Source: Prorocentrum cordatum
Taxonomy: Eukaryota > Sar > Dinophyceae > Prorocentrales > Prorocentraceae
DNA: 64,000 nucleotides
Assembly (NCBI GenBank): GCA_963575745.1
Contig: CAUYUJ010015276.1
Span: forward strand, 84,501 to 148,500
Direction: 5' to 3'
Below, in pieces: positions 11,330-63,261 of this stretch. Numbering within the stretch: position 1 is the stretch's first letter; every line of letters starts with the position of its first letter. Position numbers and translations under genes: made by a program. The notes beneath the pieces were generated by a model. The model did not search any database, had not been told where the DNA came from, and saw only the letters and a program-made list of their open reading frames with translations.

Positions 11330-12890
11330 TCTCTGGTCGCCACTGGGAGCATCTCCGCCAAGGCTGGCAGTCCGTTCGCAGCCAAGCTGTCCGGTTTAGC
11401 CATGGCCAACGATGACACTCGCGCGGTGGTGGTGGCGCGCCGTGTGCTTAGCCCGTAGCCACGAGATTCGCCAGGCAGCCGGGACCGCGCATGTCCGCGT
11501 GGGCACGTCGGCAGGGGCCGAGGCTTTGCAGAAGGTGGTGACCGCCGCGGCGGAGGAGTTGCCCGACTCCGGCTTTGTCTCCATCGACGTGAGGTCGGCT
11601 TTCCAGAAGTGCCGGCGCCGGGAACTTTTCCGAGCCTTGCGCCGGCGGCGCCCGGACTTGGAGTTCCTTGCCAACACGATGCATGACCGCCCTGGGCAGC
11701 ACGTCCTCCGAGGAAATGGGGGGCCGAGCGAAGTGTCGCGACAAGTCTTGGGCCTCGACGAGGGCTGCCCTCCGCCGGCGTTTTTCGCCATCCTTCTGGC
11801 AGACCCAGTGAGCACCTTGCGCCAGGGGTTCCAGGCATTGCACGCCAAGGCGGAGGCCGTTGCAAACCTCGACGACATTGATTTTGGGGTCCTCCGCGAG
11901 CGCCTCGAGCAGGCCATGCAACTGGCCACCCAAGCAGTCGGCAACATCGGTCTGGAGCCCAACGTGACCAAGACGAAGTTCTGGTTCCGCTCTGGCGCGC
12001 CTGCCGAGATTCCCGCCGCCTTGCTGCAGCGCGTCGCTCCGGAGCTGCCCTGCCTCGGGGGTTCGACGTTGTTCACGCGGAACCTACGTCGCCAGGTGGA
12101 GGGAGACGGCTGGCGCGACGTACTTGCTGGAGCGCAGGGGTCTGCCCAGGTGGATCGCGCCCAGGCCCGGCTTGCTGCCTTCGCCGCCCGGTTGGACGCG
12201 CTCATCCGCCATGGCTCGGCTAAGCACGACGCTTGGGTAACGTTCGCCAACTTCGCGAACGGCGCTGTCACCTACGCTCGACGAGCCCAGGCCAGCGACC
12301 ATCAGCAGTGGCGGCGTCATGGCGACCAGGTCGCCGCGGTGGTGGAGGACTGGCTAGGCGGGTCGCTGTCTGACCTCTCGCGCGAGGTCCTCTTCGTGCC
12401 CGCCAAGCTCGGCGGCGGCGGCCTGGCGGGCGCGGAGTCTCGGACGGACGCTGGCTTCCTCGTCTCCTGGGCCCAGGCAGAGGCCGTGGTATACCGCCTG
12501 CAGCGCGTCGAGACGCCGGCGCAGTCCGAGCAGGCCGCTCCGCCATTGCACCAAGCCGTGCGCGCGGCCACGGAACGCGCGCAGGCGGCGGGCGGGTCGG
12601 CGGCCGCGCGGACCCAGAAAGCCATGTCCAAGACTCTGGTGGCCAGGCGGAACCGGGACCTCAGAGCGGGATTGGAAGGCGACGCAGCAGCGCCCCTCGA
12701 ATTCGCAGGCAGCAGAAGGCGGAGCGTGGCTCCAAGCGACGCGTCGCGACAAGGACGCGTTGTCGGACGACGCGTTGCGCCCCCGCCTGCGGCGGCGCCT
12801 CCTCTTCGAGGATCCGGCCGCGCAGTGGGCGGCGCCGTGCGCGCCTCGCGGAGCTCGCCGAGCCTGCGGGTGCATTGCGCGGCCCCCGCT
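11330..12890 (+). pseudogene. Decayed LINE reverse transcriptase fragment
   Basis: The frame ending at 11458 carries DDTRAVVVARRV, matching the early RT block that reads D-x-R-P-V-x-V-x3-R-R in LINEs. After a one-base shift near 11446 the next frame continues with GTSAGAEAL, motif A (SIDVRSAFQKCRR), motif B (GLDEGCPPPAFF), a motif C-like NLDDIDF and motif D (GLEPNVTKTKFWF). Motif C has lost the aromatic residue of Y/F-x-D-D. The frame stays open to 13217, but after about 12745 the LINE-like sequence (LSDDALRPRLRRRLLF) is in a third frame. There is no endonuclease domain upstream, so this is a 5'-truncated, broken copy of a family related to, but different from, the minus-strand LINE next to it. 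Confidence 0.8.
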
Positions 12891-13977
12891 GGGGGAGCCA
12901 TATTTCATTTCATTTCATACCGCTTGCGGCGACGTCCGGTCCGGCGCCCGCGCCCGCGCCCGCGGACGCGCCGCGCCGTGCCGCCAGCCCCCGCGGCGGC
13001 TCACTCAGCCCTCACCTGGGCGCCGCGGGCAGTGGAGAGAGCTGCTAGGTGGCCCCGGTTTGGTGACGGTCTTTCACTCCCCATCGTTGGCCCCCCAAAG
13101 AGTGCGAGTGCTCACCAGACCGGGCCGCCCACGGGCCCCGGCTCACACCGGGGGCGCCCATGCGTCGCCCCAGGGCCTGGTCAGCGGTGCAAGTGCAGGC
13201 GTCGCGGGGAGAGCTAGCAGAAGCAGCAAGCGACTGAGCTCCGCACCCTCCCCCGCATGCCCTGGGGCCAACGGTCAGACATGGCGAGCGCATAGACCAC
13301 AAGGTGAAAGGCAACCAATGGGCCCAAGGGATGCCGCGCACGCCCATTGCAACCCATAGGTAGCACGAGGTCAACAGCCCGGCGGAAGCCCGGTGAGACG
13401 GCCCGAAGAGACGGGGAACGGGGGCAGAAGTCCCCACAGGCACGGCCCGAGCGCGACCAAAATTGCCCCGTGGCCAGCAGGGCGGACTGGCCTGGCCCCG
13501 TCAGACCACCCAAGGAAAAAGCACGAAGAGGGGGCGAGGGGGGGAAAGGGGAGGAACGAAGCAGGGCACACTGACACGAGGCGCGGGGCTGTCCTGGCGC
13601 GTAGCAGGCGGCGGCAACCGGGTGCCTGGCCGCTCACTGCGACTCACTATGAGCCCGTGCCGGGTGGCTGACTTCACCTTGCCACCCCGCACCACCCCCT
13701 GGGCAACGACGGGGGCCCTCCCCGCCCACCGGGCCCTGCCCAGGTGCGGCGAACGCCCCTGGCGCCCCAGGGCGTGCAACGCAGAAGAGGCGGAGAAAAG
13801 AAAAACGGGGGCGGGAGCAGGGCTTTCCACCCGAACACCCAGAACTGGGCTAGACGCGGTGCACGCCCTTTGCACCCCAAAAGCGGCGCGCGGTCTACAG
13901 GCTGGCGGAAGCGAGGGGAGGGGGGCAGAACAGCAGCAGCGAGAGGAGAGAACGCAAGCCGCACGCGCTACCCCGGG
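12891..13977. other. Spacer between two LINE copies
   Basis: It is the presumed 3' region of the minus-strand LINE, which ends at 13978, and of the + strand RT fragment. No poly-A tail or clear target-site duplication is seen. Large ORFs on both strands have no domains. Confidence 0.4.
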
Positions 13978-18756: not shown

Positions 18757-20572
18757 TCTCACTGATACCGCGGCAAGGGGGGGGCCCCACCCGCCGGCGC
18801 TGCAGCGGGAGCGGCGGCAGCGGCCGAGCCAGGGGCCCCAAGGGCCTGCCGGGAAGACAAGCGGGCTGGCGCAGCAGCGGATACCACCTCTGCGCGAGGC
18901 TCCAGGACGCTGGGCACTACCGACTGGACGGGCCCGAAGAGGTACAGGAGTTCCTCAATGTGTTCTGAGATAACGGTGCGGCAAGCCCTCACCAAGACCC
19001 TGCCCGCTCCACGGTTGACGAGCTGGAACATCATGGTCTGCTTGGGGCTCAAGCTCCACGTGACTTCAACTGCGGGCTGCGTGTTATCGCCCCTCGGAAC
19101 CCCACGCGGCGCCGGGTGCGACGGCTTAGACTTGGGGGGGAGGATGTGGACGCCGAGAGCGACCATGACGTTGTGCATGTCAACCTCTGAGTGGCACTGG
19201 GTAGCAAATGTCAGGACGAGCTTGACGGCGCGCTTGTTTCCCACCGCCTCATGGGCCTTAGCAAGCCAGGCGGTGTGAGCCGACTTGACCTCGTCCCAGG
19301 TGGACAGCTGCGCGCACACACGGGGGTCCACGGGCGCTCCTGGGCGCACAACACCACCCGGTGGGCGCACCGTGCCCAAGGCAAGGGGTGCGGCTGGGGT
19401 ACCGGCGGGGGCGGCTGGGGCGCCCGCGGCGCCCAGGGGAGGCACCGGCGGGATGGGCACGGCACCCGGGGCAAGGTGCACTGCCGGGGCCGCAGCCGGC
19501 GCGAATAAAGCACCCGCGAGTCCTGGGGGCCACGGCGCAGGTTCAGCAGGGCCGGCCATAGGACCAACTGGGGCAGCCGCTGCGTGGTCTGCCGCCAGAG
19601 GGGGGGGGCCGAAGACAAGTTCTGTTGGGGTGCAGCGGTGGTGGCCTTGGCGCGAATGGCATGCTCATTCAAGTGGACCCGTAATTCCTGGAGGCGTCTC
19701 AACCTCTGGGCAACCTCCTGCGGGATGTCACGAACGATGAGGTTGGATGTAGTGTGCAGCCACACGCGGTTGCCGGAAGCAGGACTGTGATGCTCCCCCC
19801 ACGGCCCGCGGCGGGCCTGGAGCTCCTGGAACTCCCTCTTCATATCCTCGAGCGTCGGCTGTCTAGGGGGCCTGGCCGCAAGCTCCACTGGTGGGCCGGG
19901 CTGAGGGTCTCGCACGTCACCCAGGTGGTCCCGCTGGCTGATTCCCGAGGCACGATGCATGAAGTAGAGCGCCCCACTTAGCGCACGTCGCGCTTCCCAC
20001 CCAGGCGGGAGGGGTGGCGGGCTCGTAGGCGGCGGTCCTGGAGAGGGCTGCTGTTGCTCCCTGGCGGTGGGTGGCGCCCTCGGCGGAGTGTGGGGCATGG
20101 GCGGCTGCTGCGGCGGCGGTGGCGGCGGCGGCGGCTGCGGCTGGAGCTGCTGCAGCGCGAGCCCGACCGTTGCGCCCTCGAAAGCGGCAGCGGGCTCCCT
20201 CACGGGGGGCTGCGCCTTCACCGTTAGGGCATGATCCCGATGCACACGCTGGGGCGATATGCCAATCCAGCCCAGCGGAGGGCCGAAGGCGCCGGGGGGC
20301 GGGTTGCCCGGCGGGGGGAGGCCGCAGGGGGCCGCTGGGGCAGCACTTGCACTAGCATCCCCGCCCTCAGTGGGGGCCTTCTCCGTCGGAGCAATAGATG
20401 GCACCGGGCTGCTCGAACTGGGGCTGCGCTGGCTGGCGCGGCGCCTGCGGCGGCTGGGTGTCCGCGAGTCAGCGCGGCGCCTATGGCGGCTGACAGGGCT
20501 GCGCTGGCTCCGAGAAGGCCGGCGGCGGCGGTCCCGCCCCCGGGAGCGGGAGCGACTACTGTCCCTCGGCAT
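18757..20572 (-). CDS. RS-rich, WW-like protein; putative LINE ORF1 (frameshifted)
   Basis: The ATG at 20572 opens MPRDSSRSRSRGRDRRRR, an RS/RD-rich head of about 70 residues like those of splicing factors. Proline-rich linkers follow, then LPPGWEARRALSGALYFMH near residue 200: the first Trp, the YF pair and the His of a WW domain are present, but the second Trp position is not (SQRDH). A helical region follows with LEDMKREFQELQARRG and IVRDIPQEVAQRLRRLQELR. A run of nine G/C near 19600 breaks the frame. The rest (19559-18759) has an Ala/Pro linker, STWDEVKSAHTAWLAKAHE, KLVLTFATQCHSEVDMHNVM and VTWSLSPKQTMMFQLVNRG. RS regions and WW domains bind splicing factors and Pro-rich ligands. Such a protein as a LINE ORF1 would be unusual. 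It could instead be a host gene or a captured one. Confidence 0.6.
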
Positions 20573-21166
20573 TTTCTGTCCTTGAGCCCCGTGGCTCCCA
20601 ACAAAGCGGCAGTGGCATGAGCTTGCGAGGGTGATGCCGACATCCTCCCAACCTGCGACAACGTCACAGGCGACAGCACGTCGGCATACCCAGCCACGCT
20701 GACCATGTGGGGCATTGACATGACAACGGCAACGACGACGCCCGCCCCCTCCCGGCCAGCCAGGGGCTGCCCGACAGACAGCCGGAAGCATATGAGCACC
20801 ACAATCTAAAACAATGACGTCCAGTGGAGCACAGGACGGGGGGCAGCACAACGCGGCACGACGAGGCGGGGCAGGGCGCGACCAACGACACAGCACCGGC
20901 ACAGCCCACCCCCAGCAAAAAGCAAACGGCACCAGGGGCACGGCACGACGCGGCACGGCACCGCAACAGCACAGCACGGCACCGGAGCAGGGGGCGGCGG
21001 CGGCGCCGAGCGAAGAGAAAAGAAGAGAGGACCGGAGCTTGGCACGCAACACCGCACACCCCACGAGGCAAATATATGTTCACGTAGAGACAAAGGTCCA
21101 AGCAACGGGGATGGCACAGGTCAGTTACACCATCAGAGAAATGGAGGTTAACGGTGGACACCGACG

Positions 21167-21423: not shown

Positions 21424-22604
21424 TCAGGACTCCCGCTGGTGGGCGCACAAAGGGTGCAGCCGAAGCGCTTTGGAAAACTCACGGCAGAAGAATTGCATAT
21501 CATCCACGGTTTGGGCGTTGGTCATGTGCGCCTCCAACGCTTCTGCCGCTGGCAGATCGCCACTCTGTCGAAACTCATTGACAAGAGAACCCGCTATCGC
21601 TCTGTAAGCGAGCCACGCCTTCCGCAACAGCGTAGCATAAAAGGTTCTGGCGCCCTCCGAGGAAGACGAGTCCAGTAGCTTCGTTGGGAAGCCAAAGTAT
21701 TGGTTGAGAAATCTTCGTGCTCCTGGTCCAACAAGCATGTGGTAATTCCAGTCGCTCGTGAGGCGCTTGGATTTCAGGGGAAGTCTGCTGTAGCGGTGCC
21801 TGGTGTAGATCCTCCAGGCGTTTTTCTTACAAAAAAGCCGAACGATGGAGCCGATGCATTGTGCAGCGACAACATCAGCTCAGCCTTTGAGCGCACGCTA
21901 TTGTCCACATTTCGGAGGGGAAGGTGATCTATGGATTCCGCCACGAAATAATCGCGCCTTGCTAAATGATCGAGGGCCTCTTCCTTAGAAAGCGACTTCA
22001 ACTCAGAGTACCGCCTTTTGCTAAATACCGAGTGAACCGCGAACATCTGGCAGGGGTGCGACATTTTGGCCGCCACATGCCGGATGATGTCACGCGGTCC
22101 CTGGCCTCGAAGCTCCGACAAGTCATCCAAAACTACGTTGGCAAAAGCAAGCGCGCAGCAGACTGACAACGCATATGCAAACGTCCATCTAAACTTTGCC
22201 GGCAACTTGTCCATAATCGTATCTTGGACCCCCGAACAGGGGGCTGCAAACTCGTCTGCAAGACTGGTAGCTCGAAGTATTTGGCCGTTGGTGTACCCAC
22301 TATCCAAGAATGGCAGAGATTCGAGAGACAGGCGCTGCCGATCCGGGAGATCGTAATCTGCCCTGTGCACGTGCTGGCCTCGAACCGCGAAGAGTTGAGC
22401 GAGCGCTCTCAGGATCTCCTGCCGCCCCTGTCTGGGAGGCTCGAAGGCGTAGTACTCCTCATCCGCCTCGTCGTACCGCTTGGCCTCCGGCGCCGGCACT
22501 GGCCGCGTCTCCGGCTCTGGCCGCGCCTCCGCCTCGGGGCAGTGGCGCTTAGGAGGCCGGCCTGGCAGCAAGGGCGCATCGTCACTGTCGCTGGGGGCGG
22601 CCAT
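21424..22604 (-). CDS. Retroposed hypothetical gene with spliced-leader relic, one frameshift
   Basis: The start is the ATG at 22604 (MAAPSDSDD), 50 bases downstream of an exact spliced-leader copy, so the 5' end of the parent mRNA is effectively visible. About 90 residues of acidic, Pro-rich sequence lead into a helical domain (EILRALAQLFAVRGQHVHRA, LSLESLPFLDSGYTNGQILR, MDKLPAKFRWTFAYALSVCC, LKSLSKEEALDHLARRDYF). The frame ends at 21772 with TGA after ADFP. The next frame continues without loss (PLKSKRLTSDWNYHMLVGPG ... FFCREFSKALRLH) to a stop at 21424. The break is one base in a CCCC run. No intron fits: a GTAAG at 21830 gives the wrong phase. Total is about 393 residues. I do not recognise the family. 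The absence of introns agrees with retroposition. The function could survive if the shift is a sequence error. Confidence 0.65.
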
Positions 22605-22654
22605 GGCACACCGAGCCGGCGCGCGCTGCCCTCTCTGCCCGCCAGCTGAAAAGG

Positions 22655-22676
22655 CTTGAGCCAAAATGGCTACGGA
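22655..22676 (-). other. Exact dinoflagellate spliced-leader relic
   Basis: On the minus strand the 22 bases begin TCCGTAGCCATTTT and end GGCTCAAG, identical to the leader added to dinoflagellate mRNAs by trans-splicing. It is followed by CCTTTTCAGCTGG and not by the GTA donor of an SL RNA gene, so it is a leader copied back into DNA with an mRNA. CCTTTTCAG could serve as the acceptor for a new leader. Confidence 0.95.
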
Positions 22677-23660
22677 AGGGGCCTGCTGCGAGAAGGGGCC
22701 TGGCTTCTCGCGGGGCCGCATTTGCTGCCGCGACGGGCTCGCAGAATGGCGCCGCGGGGATTCTGATGCCCTCGCAGAGCAGCGCGTGCCCCGGCGGGGC
22801 CGCCCAGGCGCAGACGGCTTGGCACGGGCGGTGCTCAATGCGGTCGTGCCCAGAGGCCCCGCAGGCCCCGGGCCCTCGTGTATAAGACGCGTCGGTCACG
22901 GAGGCGACGTCGGCCGACGCCGGCGCCGCGCGGGCCCACGCGCGCCGCCCAGGCCTGGCAGCTGCTTGATCTGGAGCGCACAAAGCACACGGGCTCTCCC
23001 GGTGCAGAGCTGCTGCCTGCCGTCATCGAAGGAGGAGGGCGGCGGGGGCGCGAATTCCGTCTGTGGGCGCGCTCGGTCTTGCCGGAGGGCCCCTGGCGAG
23101 CAGAGCAGCTCGCCGATCTCCGCTGCCGGCTGGCCGTGCCGCTGCAGCGGGGCGTCGCTGCTTCGCTGCTCGCTGCCAGCGCCAGGGCCGCACGCCCATG
23201 GCAGTTAGCTAGTGCGCAATCCGCCGGTGACCTCCCAGAGCCCCCCGAAGCCCCCAGAGTTGTTGACGTCTTCTGCTGTTCCTTAGTTTTTGCTGGTCAG
23301 CCCCCGCTCCCTCTCTTCCTTCTCTCCTTCCCCGCCCTTTGCCTCCGGCGGGCGCGCGCGCGCGCCTAAGGGGGGGTCGGGCGAGTCGCGCCCCTCCGCC
23401 GCGCGTCCGTCGCCTCCGCCTTCCGGTTCCTTCCTGCTCCCCGCTCCCTTTTCCCTCCACCTTGCCGCCCTGTATGCATTGTTTTTAGGTGTGTGTCGCG
23501 GGTACCCGGGCGGTCTTTGGCCATCCGGGCGTCAACAAACACCTGGATAGACACACCCCCTTGCCATTTTTTCTCGCGGACCTCCGGCCGATGCGCCTGG
23601 CCCCGGTGCACACCAGTTCTAAAAAAGAGTTGGTGCTGGGGCCGCGGATTCAGCCAGGAG
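22677..23660. other. GC-rich spacer, no supported gene
   Basis: Overlapping ORFs on both strands are Ala/Arg/Gly-rich without domains. It holds the promoter region, if any, of the retroposed gene. No TATA-like box is evident. Confidence 0.35.
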
Positions 23661-60450: not shown

Positions 60451-60960
60451 CGCCCTCTGTTCCAAACGACTAATGTGAACTTCTGCTACAGTACAACACA
60501 GGCGCACCGAAGCGATGTCATTTACCTACAATACGACATTAATGTGTCATTTACCTCACTAATGTGAGATTTACCTACAGTTCGACCCACAACGCAACAC
60601 TAATGTGTCATTCACCTATAATACAAGCCGACTGCAGCGTTCACCTACAATGCAACATAAGTGGTGCCCCACCAAGCCCCCAACGGACAATCTAACAGTG
60701 AGGATTGGAGCCGGTTGGGCGGTTCGGGTGGCCCGCCAAAGCTCCAGGAGGTTCGTCGTTTTTGTCGCCCCGTGGAGGCCGTTCTCGGCATTGGTGGCCG
60801 CTAGAAATCGGATCCGGAGCGGAAAACTGCGCCGAAGGGAACCCGCGCGGGGTCCGGGGGCAGATTTTTCCAGCGGGGTGGCCCTCGCCCCTCCCTTGAC
60901 CGAGTCTCTCGGGGCCTGTCCAGTTCAGACCCCCTGTCCGTTTCCAATTGGAGGAGGCTC
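60451..60960. other. Upstream flank of the histone-like gene
   Basis: CATTTACCTACAATACGACA-like repeats (TGTCATTTACCTACA) recur between 60490 and 60660. The remainder is GC-rich. A + strand ORF runs through but in a frame not continuous with the histone fold. Earlier exons of that gene could lie here. Confidence 0.35.
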
Positions 60961-62496
60961 ATGGGCACCGCCCCGAGCCATCTCTCGGGCGAGTTCGACA
61001 GGACATTCCACCCGGGCAGCGCGACCCATTGCTTGTGCGAGTTCGACAAGCTCGCGCGCTACCAGAACAGCGAGAAACAGAAGAGGGCCCGGCAGTGCGA
61101 CACGGCCGCGCCGCCGCCCAAGGCCGCGGGGAGCTCCGCCGCCACAGGCCGCGCGACGAGCGACGAGCCCGAGGCCCAGGCCGCGGGGGTTGCCGCCGCC
61201 CAAGGACGTGGATTATGGCCCCCCCTGGCGCCTGAGCGCTCGAAATCTCCGTCCGCGGGCGGAGGGGGGGCCGCTCCTGCGGGCCTCCGGCTTCCCGGGG
61301 ATGTAGATTTCGAGCGCTCTGGCGCTGGGGGGGGGTGCAAATTCTACGCCCCGGGGGGGGTCTCTTCGCCCCCCAGGCAGCGGCCGCCCGCGCGAGCCCA
61401 TTGGCGGCCCGGCAGGCGCTGGCCGACGCGGCCCCCGTCGAGGGCGGCGTGGAGCATGGGGGCGAGGACGCAGCAGTCAAAAAGGTGCTGGCGGCGGCGC
61501 ACGTAGCCGCCTTGCGCGGGGCAGAGGCCGCGGCGGCGGCCAGCCCGGCTCCAGCCGCGCGAGGGGTGCACGGCCAAGCGCGTTCCCAGGAGGAGCGGAA
61601 CGACAGGCGCAGGGCGCGGGCGGTCGCGGCGAACCTGAGCGACAGAAACCGCGAGTTCTCCAAGGCCGCCTTCACGCGCTTGGCGCGGGAATTGGCGGAG
61701 GAGATCACCACGGACATGGGCTGCGACGCCAGAAAGTGGAGTGCCGCGGCCCTGGCTGCCTTGAAAAGCAGCTCTGAGCAGCACCTGGTCGAAGTCCTGG
61801 CGAAGTCCAACTGGTGCGTTGGGCGATCGATAACGGGCCCCTTGCGACCCGCCTCTCGCTGGATTTCGCGCGGGGGACCGCCGCGCGCCGCCGCGGGCCA
61901 CTGGGCGCCGCCGAAGACCGCCAAACAGAGACCTTTAGGAAACGCAAAGGCCGCCGAATACCCCCGCAGACCGCCGAAGGCCGAGGGGCAACAAAGGGTC
62001 GAGCACGCAAGGTTCGCCATCCACAACAAGCGGCAGACGCCCCATTCGAGCGGCGTCCAGCTGCACACTCGCGCGATGGCCAAGGGGCGCGTCAACCCCG
62101 CGTGCGTCGAGGAGAGGCGGCAGCTCCGGAGGCAGCCCGAGAACCGCGAGGACAGGAAGGCCAAGGCCAAGAAGCAGCGGCGTGAGTGAGATAGGAGCGG
62201 GCAGGGGTCTCCCACGGGCTGATGAGGGCAGCCGCGGGGCGAATGGCTTACAGGCGAATGAGAAGATCCGCCTTGTCGCTAGCGGCTGGGGTTCGCCCAG
62301 AGGCCGATGAGGCAGCCTGGGGCCTGGGGGCTGATAGCCCGCAGGGCGCTAGCTGTTTTCGGAGGCGTGCGCGTTTCCATTGGAGATGTCCACCCCCGCC
62401 TGCGGCATCCTTCCTCTATCCATTTGTCATTTCAGTGGGAGGCGGGGCGGTCGCCGGCGGAAAGGTGGAAGGGGGGGGGGGGGAGGAGGGGGAGGG

Positions 62497-62527
<31 letters not shown>

Positions 62528-62568
62528 CAGGAGGTGGAGACCCCAGGGCGCGCGCGCCGCAAAAGGAC
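60961..62568 (+). CDS. Histone H3-fold protein, CENP-A-like, at least four exons (3' end open)
   Basis: The fold is split by introns but reads clearly. Helix 1 is AAFTRLARELAEEI, aligning with H3 PFQRLVREIAQDF. A loop TTDMGCDARKW leads into helix 2 SAAALAALKSSSEQHLVEVL, aligning with SSAVMALQEASEAYLVGLF. SNW then joins FAIHNKRQTP (H3: NLCAIHAKRVTI), followed by GVQLHTRAMAKGR (H3: DIQLARRIRGER). Exons: 60961-61207 (ATG at 60961, tentative), 61381-61813, 62012-62181, 62436-62568. Introns are GT-AG with matching phases: GTGGAT...GGCAG, GTGCGT...GCAAG, GTGAGT...TTTCAG. The fold starts near residue 176 of the model. The N-terminal part is Ala/Arg-rich and unlike the H3 tail. After the fold come about 30 Arg/Lys-rich residues, then an acidic exon (EDEDEDEDEG) and RARRKR. 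If the third intron is retained, a stop occurs at 62187. Histone H3 forms the nucleosome core in the nucleus. See Findings for the centromeric features. Confidence 0.8.
61208..61380 (+). other. Intron 1 of the histone-like gene, repeat-derived
   Basis: After AAGGAC it starts GTGGATTATGGCCCCCC. Inside, CCTGAGCGCTCGAAATCTCC and GTAGATTTCGAGCGCTCTGG are inverted repeats around a G/C-rich centre. Its first 60-odd bases match the start of the candidate intron at 62569. The acceptor is GGCAG at 61380 in phase 1. The GCCCCCCAG at 61376 is an alternative with another phase. Confidence 0.55.
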
Positions 62569-62754
62569 GTAGATTTTGGCCCCCCTCGGCGCCGAAGCGA
62601 CCGAAACCTCCGTCCGTGGGCGGCAGGGGCCTTTGAGAAAGGGGCCCCCCACGGCGCGCCTCGGGGGGCCCGCCTCGTCTCCGCGGCCGGGCGCGGCTGG
62701 AAAAACTGGGCTTGTCCCGCCCCGGGAGGGGCCCAGGGGCCCGTTTAGGAGGTC
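62569..62754 (+). other. Start of a candidate fourth intron, same repeat as intron 1
   Basis: After AAGGAC it starts GTAGATTTTGGCCCCCCT, then CCTCCGTCCGTGGGCGG. Bases agree with intron 1 at roughly three of four positions over the first 60. No acceptor was identified; the intron may run through the GTC repeat downstream. Confidence 0.5.
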
Positions 62755-62787
62755 GTCGGTGTCGCCGTCGTCGTCGTCCGTCGTCGT

Positions 62788-62822
<35 letters not shown>

Positions 62823-62827
62823 CTCGT

Positions 62828-62902
<75 letters not shown>

Positions 62903-62951
62903 GGGGCTCGTTTCGGGATCGTCGCCGTCGTCGCCGTCGCCGTCGCCCTTG

Positions 62952-63019
<68 letters not shown>

Positions 63020-63031
63020 CGTCGCCGTCGC

Positions 63032-63069
<38 letters not shown>

Positions 63070-63118
63070 TCCGTCGTCCGTCGTCGTCCGTCGTCGTCCG
63101 TCGTCCGTCGTCCGTCGT

Positions 63119-63156
<38 letters not shown>

Positions 63157-63228
63157 CGTCGCCGCCGCAAGCGTCGTCGTCGTCGCCCGTCGTCGTCCGT
63201 CGCCGTCGCCCTCGCCGCTGCCGCCGTT

Positions 63229-63261
<33 letters not shown>

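Follow-up and report, generated by a model that had tools for sequence, protein, structure and literature searches.

How do dinoflagellate chromosomes, in which most of the DNA is packed by means other than nucleosomes, mark the site at which they are pulled apart? A candidate gene that bears on this lies near the end of the 64-kb window, the whole stretch of Prorocentrum cordatum DNA analyzed here. By its predicted protein, it is a very divergent member of the histone H3 family with three hallmarks of CenH3. It is a good though unproven candidate for the centromere marker that these algae have been missing.

The window is dinoflagellate, since it contains an exact 21-nt match (22675 to 22655, minus strand) to the dinoflagellate spliced-leader sequence. 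The pattern had no matches in 100 shuffles of the sequence, even with three mismatches allowed. The G+C content of the window is 63.6%. The published P. cordatum genome is described in a passage of PMC10666404 as having an elevated G+C content and introns rich in introner elements with inverted repeats, and the window fits both traits.

The histone gene is genuine. Its model spans 60961 to 62572 on the plus strand in four exons and encodes 328 amino acids followed by a stop codon (Table 1). The reading frames, the SNW/FAIHNKR join, the AFTRLARE and DARKWSAAA motifs, the long loop 1, and the acidic exon were all found where an earlier reading of the sequence by eye (the sequence-only reading) had placed them.

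Table 1. Features of the histone gene model and its surroundings, with GC content at codon positions 1/2/3
Feature	Position	Strand	Description and basis	GC by codon position
TTCAG, possible trans-splice acceptor	60924..60928	+	Shortly 5' of the ATG; putative, from sequence only	
Exon 1	60961..61203	+	Start codon (ATG), then the N-terminal extension up to residue 81 (MGTAPSHLSG...); open frame	0.64/0.62/0.91
Intron 1	61204..61376	+	Introner-like; holds a 56-nt inverted repeat	No codon periodicity over 61204-61377; third position 0.69
Exon 2	61377..61813	+	Ala-rich linker, basic stretch, helix 1, loop 1, most of helix 2; Pfam PF00125, PDB phmmer	0.74/0.59/0.86 (61377-61811)
Helix 1	about 61671-61706	+	In exon 2	
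Loop 1	about 61707-61736	+	In exon 2; H3 loop 1 plus five residues	
Trp202	61737-61739	+	In exon 2	
Intron 2	61814..62011	+	198 nt, GT..AG/G; cuts the end of helix 2	0.73/0.67/0.70
Exon 3	62012..62181	+	End of helix 2 (FAIHNKR), loop 2, helix 3, basic linker; profile alignment	0.64/0.46/0.96
Helix 3	about 62049-62081	+	In exon 3	
Intron 3	62182..62435	+	GTGAGT...TTTCATTTCAG; sequence	0.61/0.64/0.67
Exon 4	62436..62572	+	Acidic Glu/Asp/Gly tail, basic end RARRKRT, TAG; splice consensus and frame	0.89/0.52/0.89 (62438-62569)
Second copy of the left part of the intron 1 element	62555..62629	+	81% identity to 61194-61268 over 75 nt	

Third-position GC was 0.91, 0.86, 0.96, and 0.89 in exons 1 to 4, against 0.69, 0.70, and 0.67 in introns 1 to 3, where no clear codon rhythm is seen. 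The codon-position GC contrast of exons 1 to 3 is not uncommon as such and was reached by 140 of 3,000 random windows from the first 60 kb. It is used as coding evidence because it lies in the predicted frame and ends at the predicted introns. The frame signal is weak in the Ala-rich part of exon 2 (61380 to 61580), where first-position GC (0.91) exceeds third-position GC (0.84). Positions 1 and 3 are equal in exon 4, a pattern that the GAG/GAC repeat alone could yield. Exon 1 is backed by no homology, only by its open frame and codon-position GC. It also contains a 27-nt stretch repeated 48 nt apart (60974 to 61048; 81% identical; SHLSGEFDR and THCLCEFDK), which is a small in-frame duplication.

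The intron at the end of helix 2 had been proposed from the sequence alone, and it was recovered as the best choice. Around it, 835 GT/GC/GA-AG pairs were tried, and 773 stayed open. Intron 2 ranked first of the 773 by the H3/CENP-A profile, with 47.1 bits; the next choice scored 42.4 bits and the unspliced sequence scored 33.8 bits. It contains no in-frame stop, so the open reading frame from 61236 to 62189 reads straight through it. If intron 3 were retained, the protein would end at the TGA at 62187 to 62189.

The join of exons 1 and 2 is the least certain in the model because intron 1 fits no standard donor/acceptor pair. Its boundary is ambiguous by one base (61204 to 61376 with GG..AG or 61205 to 61377 with GA..GG), and the spliced product is identical. 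Dinoflagellate introns with GC and GA donors, and with other boundaries besides GT-AG, are reported in a part of PMC11453091. The arms of the intron 1 inverted repeat (61219 to 61274 and 61279 to 61334) are 79% complementary. The two copies of the element match at 83.6% over 61 nt by blastn. The TAG of exon 4 (62570 to 62572) lies inside the second copy, so the true C terminus is uncertain. Another intron may begin at this copy, with the gene continuing in another exon. As modeled, one gene holds two introner-like inverted-repeat copies, and the acidic exon takes its stop codon from the second.

By its sequence, the predicted protein belongs to the histone H3 family and has the H3 fold. The spliced candidate matched Pfam PF00125 (core histone) with 34.4 bits (cut-off, 26.4 bits; E = 3e-8). 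With intron 2 left in, the score was 21.5 bits, under the cut-off. In the local H3/CENP-A profile, the spliced candidate scored 47.1 bits and its shuffles reached at most 12.7 bits (1,837 of 2,000 gave a score). Among 1,185 open reading frames of at least 30 codons in the window, the gene's own unspliced frame scored 32.2 bits and the next scored 4.9 bits. The names H3, Cse4, or cnp1 were carried by 58 of the best 60 of 177 PDB matches; of the remaining 2, 7on1_e had a gene-model name and 7xcr_E was called "Histone domain-containing protein". The profile search and the PDB matches thus bear out the H3 assignment of the sequence-only reading.

The fold agrees with this assignment. In a hand alignment, 26 of 75 residues were identical to H3. 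Of the 25 positions taken as buried, 20 retain a residue that is hydrophobic or small, with Thr included. Five of seven DNA-contact residues of H3 are retained (R69, R72, K115, R116, and T118). H113, R116, L126, and R129 of H3 are also retained.

Other families were rejected. Human H4 scored 11.2 and 7.1 bits in the two profiles described below, and membership in H4 was rejected. A match to CENP-T_C was below threshold (13.5 bits; cut-off, 28.1; E = 0.078), and membership in CENP-T was rejected. A viral histone origin found no support in searches of viral_contigs. No relatives were found in viral_contigs and genome_contigs (bacteria and archaea only). A single-sequence query of a 5.8-billion protein collection gave 363 candidates, none with E <= 0.001. 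A second such search of this collection gave 217 candidates, none with E <= 10. Such searches work only where query and target have exact words or peptide patterns in common, and they missed even known CENP-As, so these results are no proof that relatives are absent.

The candidate carries three differences from H3 that the sequence-only reading had called CENP-A-like, and the profile, the PDB matches, and the feature counts back them. Gln68 in helix 1 is replaced by Thr (AFTRL), loop 1 has five additional residues, and Phe84 is replaced by Trp. The span from Phe to Phe is 23 in the candidate and 18 in H3. We compared these features in the best 120 of 8,000 scored relatives, from a search whose profile included the candidate and four CenH3s. 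Of these relatives, 118 were parsed. The Gln was present in 43, and 41 of the 43 had a span of 18; the other 2 were H3.1/CENP-A chimeras with a span of 20 and Trp. The 75 Gln-less relatives all had spans of 19 to 28, with Trp in 73, Val in one, and Phe in one. All 46 rows with a visible centromeric name, chimeras aside (one name, P0111, was partly visible), were Gln-less with Trp and had spans of 20 to 27, a range that includes the candidate. P0108 was Gln-less with a span of 20 but had Phe, and it grouped among the H3s in the tree, so two of the hallmarks can occur outside CenH3.

Four working criteria were used for euglenozoan cenH3, and the Trp is not among them in the part of PMC7052976 that lists them. 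They are an insertion of one or more residues in loop 1, absence of the conserved Gln of helix 1, a divergent N-terminal tail, and a divergent histone fold. The candidate qualifies on all four. The candidate has five inserted residues and Thr in place of the Gln. It has 179 residues before the helix 1 Phe, and its translation contains no H3-like tail, in line with the N-terminal extension noted earlier. Its fold is divergent at 26 of 75 identical residues, which is weakly diagnostic because the same is true of many dinoflagellate H3s. The CenH3 of Dictyostelium is described in an excerpt of PMC9252888 as having no long loop.

Two further features depart from the relatives. Asp123 of H3 is Gly in the candidate and is kept in all 75 Gln-less relatives listed. 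The EIRxxQ motif of alpha-N is absent in the candidate and is kept in 74 of the 75 listed. Neither is a published criterion. Other unusual residues are Phe at C110, Asn at A114, and Ala at I130.

The candidate scored 47.8 bits in a CENP-A-type profile and 33.4 bits in an H3 profile, a preference of +14.4 for CENP-A. The CENP-A-type profile contained 23 rows and the H3 profile contained 8, with P0108 and P0057 left out of both. A centromeric name was present on 12 of the 23 rows, and the rest were chosen by their features. The CENP-A-type profile is the broader of the two because of its 23 rows against 8, and simulations were meant as the control. When rows were left out one at a time, the CENP-A profile won by 18 to 34 bits for all four CENP-A-type rows tried (of 23), and the H3 profile won by 28 to 37 bits for all three H3s tried (of 8).

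The simulations used random divergence, with no insertions or other indels and no dinoflagellate background, and sequences with at least 25 bits in one profile were scored. From H3, 1,800 sequences were made at 35 to 45% identity and 1,695 were scored; none reached +14.4, and the maximum was +2.1. From CENP-A/Cse4, 1,800 were made and 1,352 were scored; 578 reached +14.4. Single reversions left a preference of +9.0 (Trp to Phe), +10.1 (Thr to Gln), or +7.3 (five loop residues removed). With all three hallmarks undone the preference fell to -3.0. It is thus carried by exactly these features, and elsewhere the fold gives CENP-A no advantage.

The PDB ranking leaned the same way by a small margin. 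The first eight rows by phmmer scored 36.5 to 33.9 bits; seven were named Cse4, and one carried a gene-model name only (7on1_e). H3.3C was next at 33.8 bits, and Cse4 was ahead of canonical H3 by less than 3 bits. The cnp1 match scored 29.9 bits and ranked among the H3s. Human CENP-A and CID were not among the best 60 of 177 matches. In a MAFFT alignment, the identities to CenH3s were 37% (Cse4), 30% (cnp1), 28% (human CENP-A), and 27% (CID). Identity to three H3s was 24 to 31%, and canonical H3 (31%) was closer than human CENP-A.

Phylogeny is uninformative for the placement of the candidate with H3 or CenH3. In the first tree, it was a saturated branch with about 10 changes per site. A 28-row tree drew on the first one and kept 19 of its 24 CENP-A-type sequences and 8 of its 9 H3 sequences (P0059, P0067, P0096, P0108, P0111, and P0057 were out). 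It placed the candidate outside the eight H3s with support of 97/97. For the same 28 rows, neither a grouping of H3 with the candidate (p-AU, 0.396) nor one of Cse4 with the candidate (p-AU, 0.634) was rejected. According to a passage of PMC2939574, tree position was not enough to place uncharacterized divergent H3s in CenH3.

Marinov and Lynch describe dinoflagellate H3s as mostly deeply diverging, some extended with very divergent tails; in the part of their paper at hand, no H3 group clusters robustly with CenH3, and the presence of CenH3 is not excluded (PMC4751559). Bayer et al. list a CSE4-like H3 in Symbiodinium Mf1.05b (excerpt of PMC3329448), and a CENP-A-like transcript is annotated in Breviolum minutum (excerpt of PMC7710908). 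CSE4-like annotations in Symbiodiniaceae are thus already known, and the candidate is not the first of its sort. The sequence-only reading was right that the centromeric histone of dinoflagellates is poorly known, although such annotations preceded it. A section of PMC6723414 calls CSE4/CENP-A-type naming of dinoflagellate H3s premature. According to part of PMC3603444, dinoflagellate kinetochores lie at the nuclear membrane, and a classical DNA-binding interface is thought more likely.

The candidate resembles several of these systems. It shares with Cse4, CENP-A, and cnp1 of fungi and animals the H3 fold, the Gln-less helix 1, a long loop 1 ended by Trp, and a long divergent N-terminal tail. 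Unlike them, it lacks EIRxxQ, has Gly for Asp123, and carries an acidic C-terminal tail, and its identity to the four CenH3s compared is only 27 to 37%. The fold residues it shares with canonical H3 include A111, I112, and H113 besides R69, R72, K115, R116, and T118; unlike canonical H3, it has the longer loop 1, Thr for Gln68, Trp for Phe84, and no H3-like tail. By published description only, it is like the extended dinoflagellate H3 variants in its extended, divergent tail and deep divergence (part of PMC4751559). It is likened, also by description only, to the CSE4-like transcript of Symbiodinium Mf1.05b and the CENP-A-like one of Breviolum minutum, which are dinoflagellate H3 variants annotated by similarity as centromeric (parts of PMC3329448 and PMC7710908).

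From the protein sequence, we tentatively read the gene as an H3 variant of the CenH3 (CENP-A/Cse4) type with a centromeric function. The hallmarks and the preference of +14.4 bits speak for the CENP-A-like reading made earlier; the score of -3.0 once the hallmarks are undone and the missing Asp123 and EIRxxQ speak against it. The alternative named at that time, a fast-evolving non-centromeric H3 variant, stays about as likely. Such variants are numerous in dinoflagellates and would mark transcribed or boundary chromatin. With DNA packed by other proteins, the constraint on H3 would be weaker, and the loss of the Gln, the growth of the loop, and the Trp could have arisen by drift. Most dinoflagellate H3s diverge deeply, and extended, divergent-tailed ones are described in portions of PMC4751559 and PMC6723414. 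Trees cannot tell the cases apart, and the absence of Asp123 and of the alpha-N motif fits relaxed constraint. Apart from the three hallmarks, H3 has a slight edge in the fold (-3.0). Against drift, all three CENP-A diagnostics are present together, and none of the 1,695 scored simulations, which were free of indels and of a dinoflagellate background, matched the CENP-A preference. Removal of the five loop residues still gives +7.3, above the simulated maximum of +2.1.

A third reading is an H3-derived, non-nucleosomal histone-fold protein whose partner is H4 or another fold and which would be a subunit in chaperone, transcription, or kinetochore (CENP-T-like) machinery. Its acidic tail would bind histones or other basic chromosomal proteins. 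We consider it improbable. The acidic tail, the lost alpha-N, the altered H3-H3' interface, and the weak sub-threshold CENP-T_C match fit such a protein, but five of seven DNA contacts of H3 and H113, R116, L126, and R129 are retained, and the core histone model was the sole Pfam match above its cut-off. A decaying pseudogene or unexpressed copy is very improbable: the stop codon lies within a repeat element and the single-sequence queries of the protein collection, which has transcriptome proteins (eukprot) among its entries, yielded no relative, but all exons are open, their third-position GC is 0.86 to 0.96 against 0.67 to 0.70 in the introns, and the homology-optimal intron has consensus splice sites.

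If the gene encodes a CenH3, the protein would pair with the H4 of the cell and would contact DNA at the retained R69, R72, K115, R116, and T118. The long loop 1 would be an exposed surface recognized by a dedicated loading chaperone. Loop 1 is recognized by cenH3 chaperones, at least in Drosophila, in a passage of PMC8015243. Where chromosomes attach to the nuclear-envelope kinetochore, the protein may stand in for H3 in the few nucleosomes present. Its long N-terminal and acidic C-terminal tails may be flexible contacts to kinetochore or chaperone partners, and the acidic tail would bind basic partners. Gly at D123, Phe at C110, Asn at A114, Ala at I130, and the unrecognizable alpha-N probably weaken the H3-H3' four-helix contact and the binding of DNA ends. 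This eroded interface points to a particle that is unusual or less stable, not a standard octamer. That the dinokaryon keeps a working CenH3 particle, with a weak H3-H3' interface and an acidic tail, at the sites of attachment to the nuclear-envelope kinetochore is a rather doubtful extension of this reading. The gene nonetheless offers a single target for a tag or antibody. It could locate dinoflagellate centromeres, or the same target could show that divergent H3s with the look of CenH3 act otherwise.

The remaining observations concern the rest of the window. The spliced-leader match (22655 to 22675, minus strand) sits in an open minus-strand frame of 373 codons (21777 to 22895) and has the look of a retrogene's 5' mark. 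This frame had no Pfam matches at E <= 0.01. A plus-strand frame of 605 codons (11400 to 13214) had a weak match to the reverse transcriptase RVT_1 (24.0 bits; cut-off, 29.6) and is possibly a retroelement remnant. A minus-strand frame of 622 codons (19214 to 21079) weakly matched a WW domain, at 22.4 bits against a cut-off of 26.9. Rfam gave no matches at gathering scores over the window. On the 3' side of the histone gene, positions 62757 to 63260 contain about 500 bases of a (GTC)n-type simple repeat.
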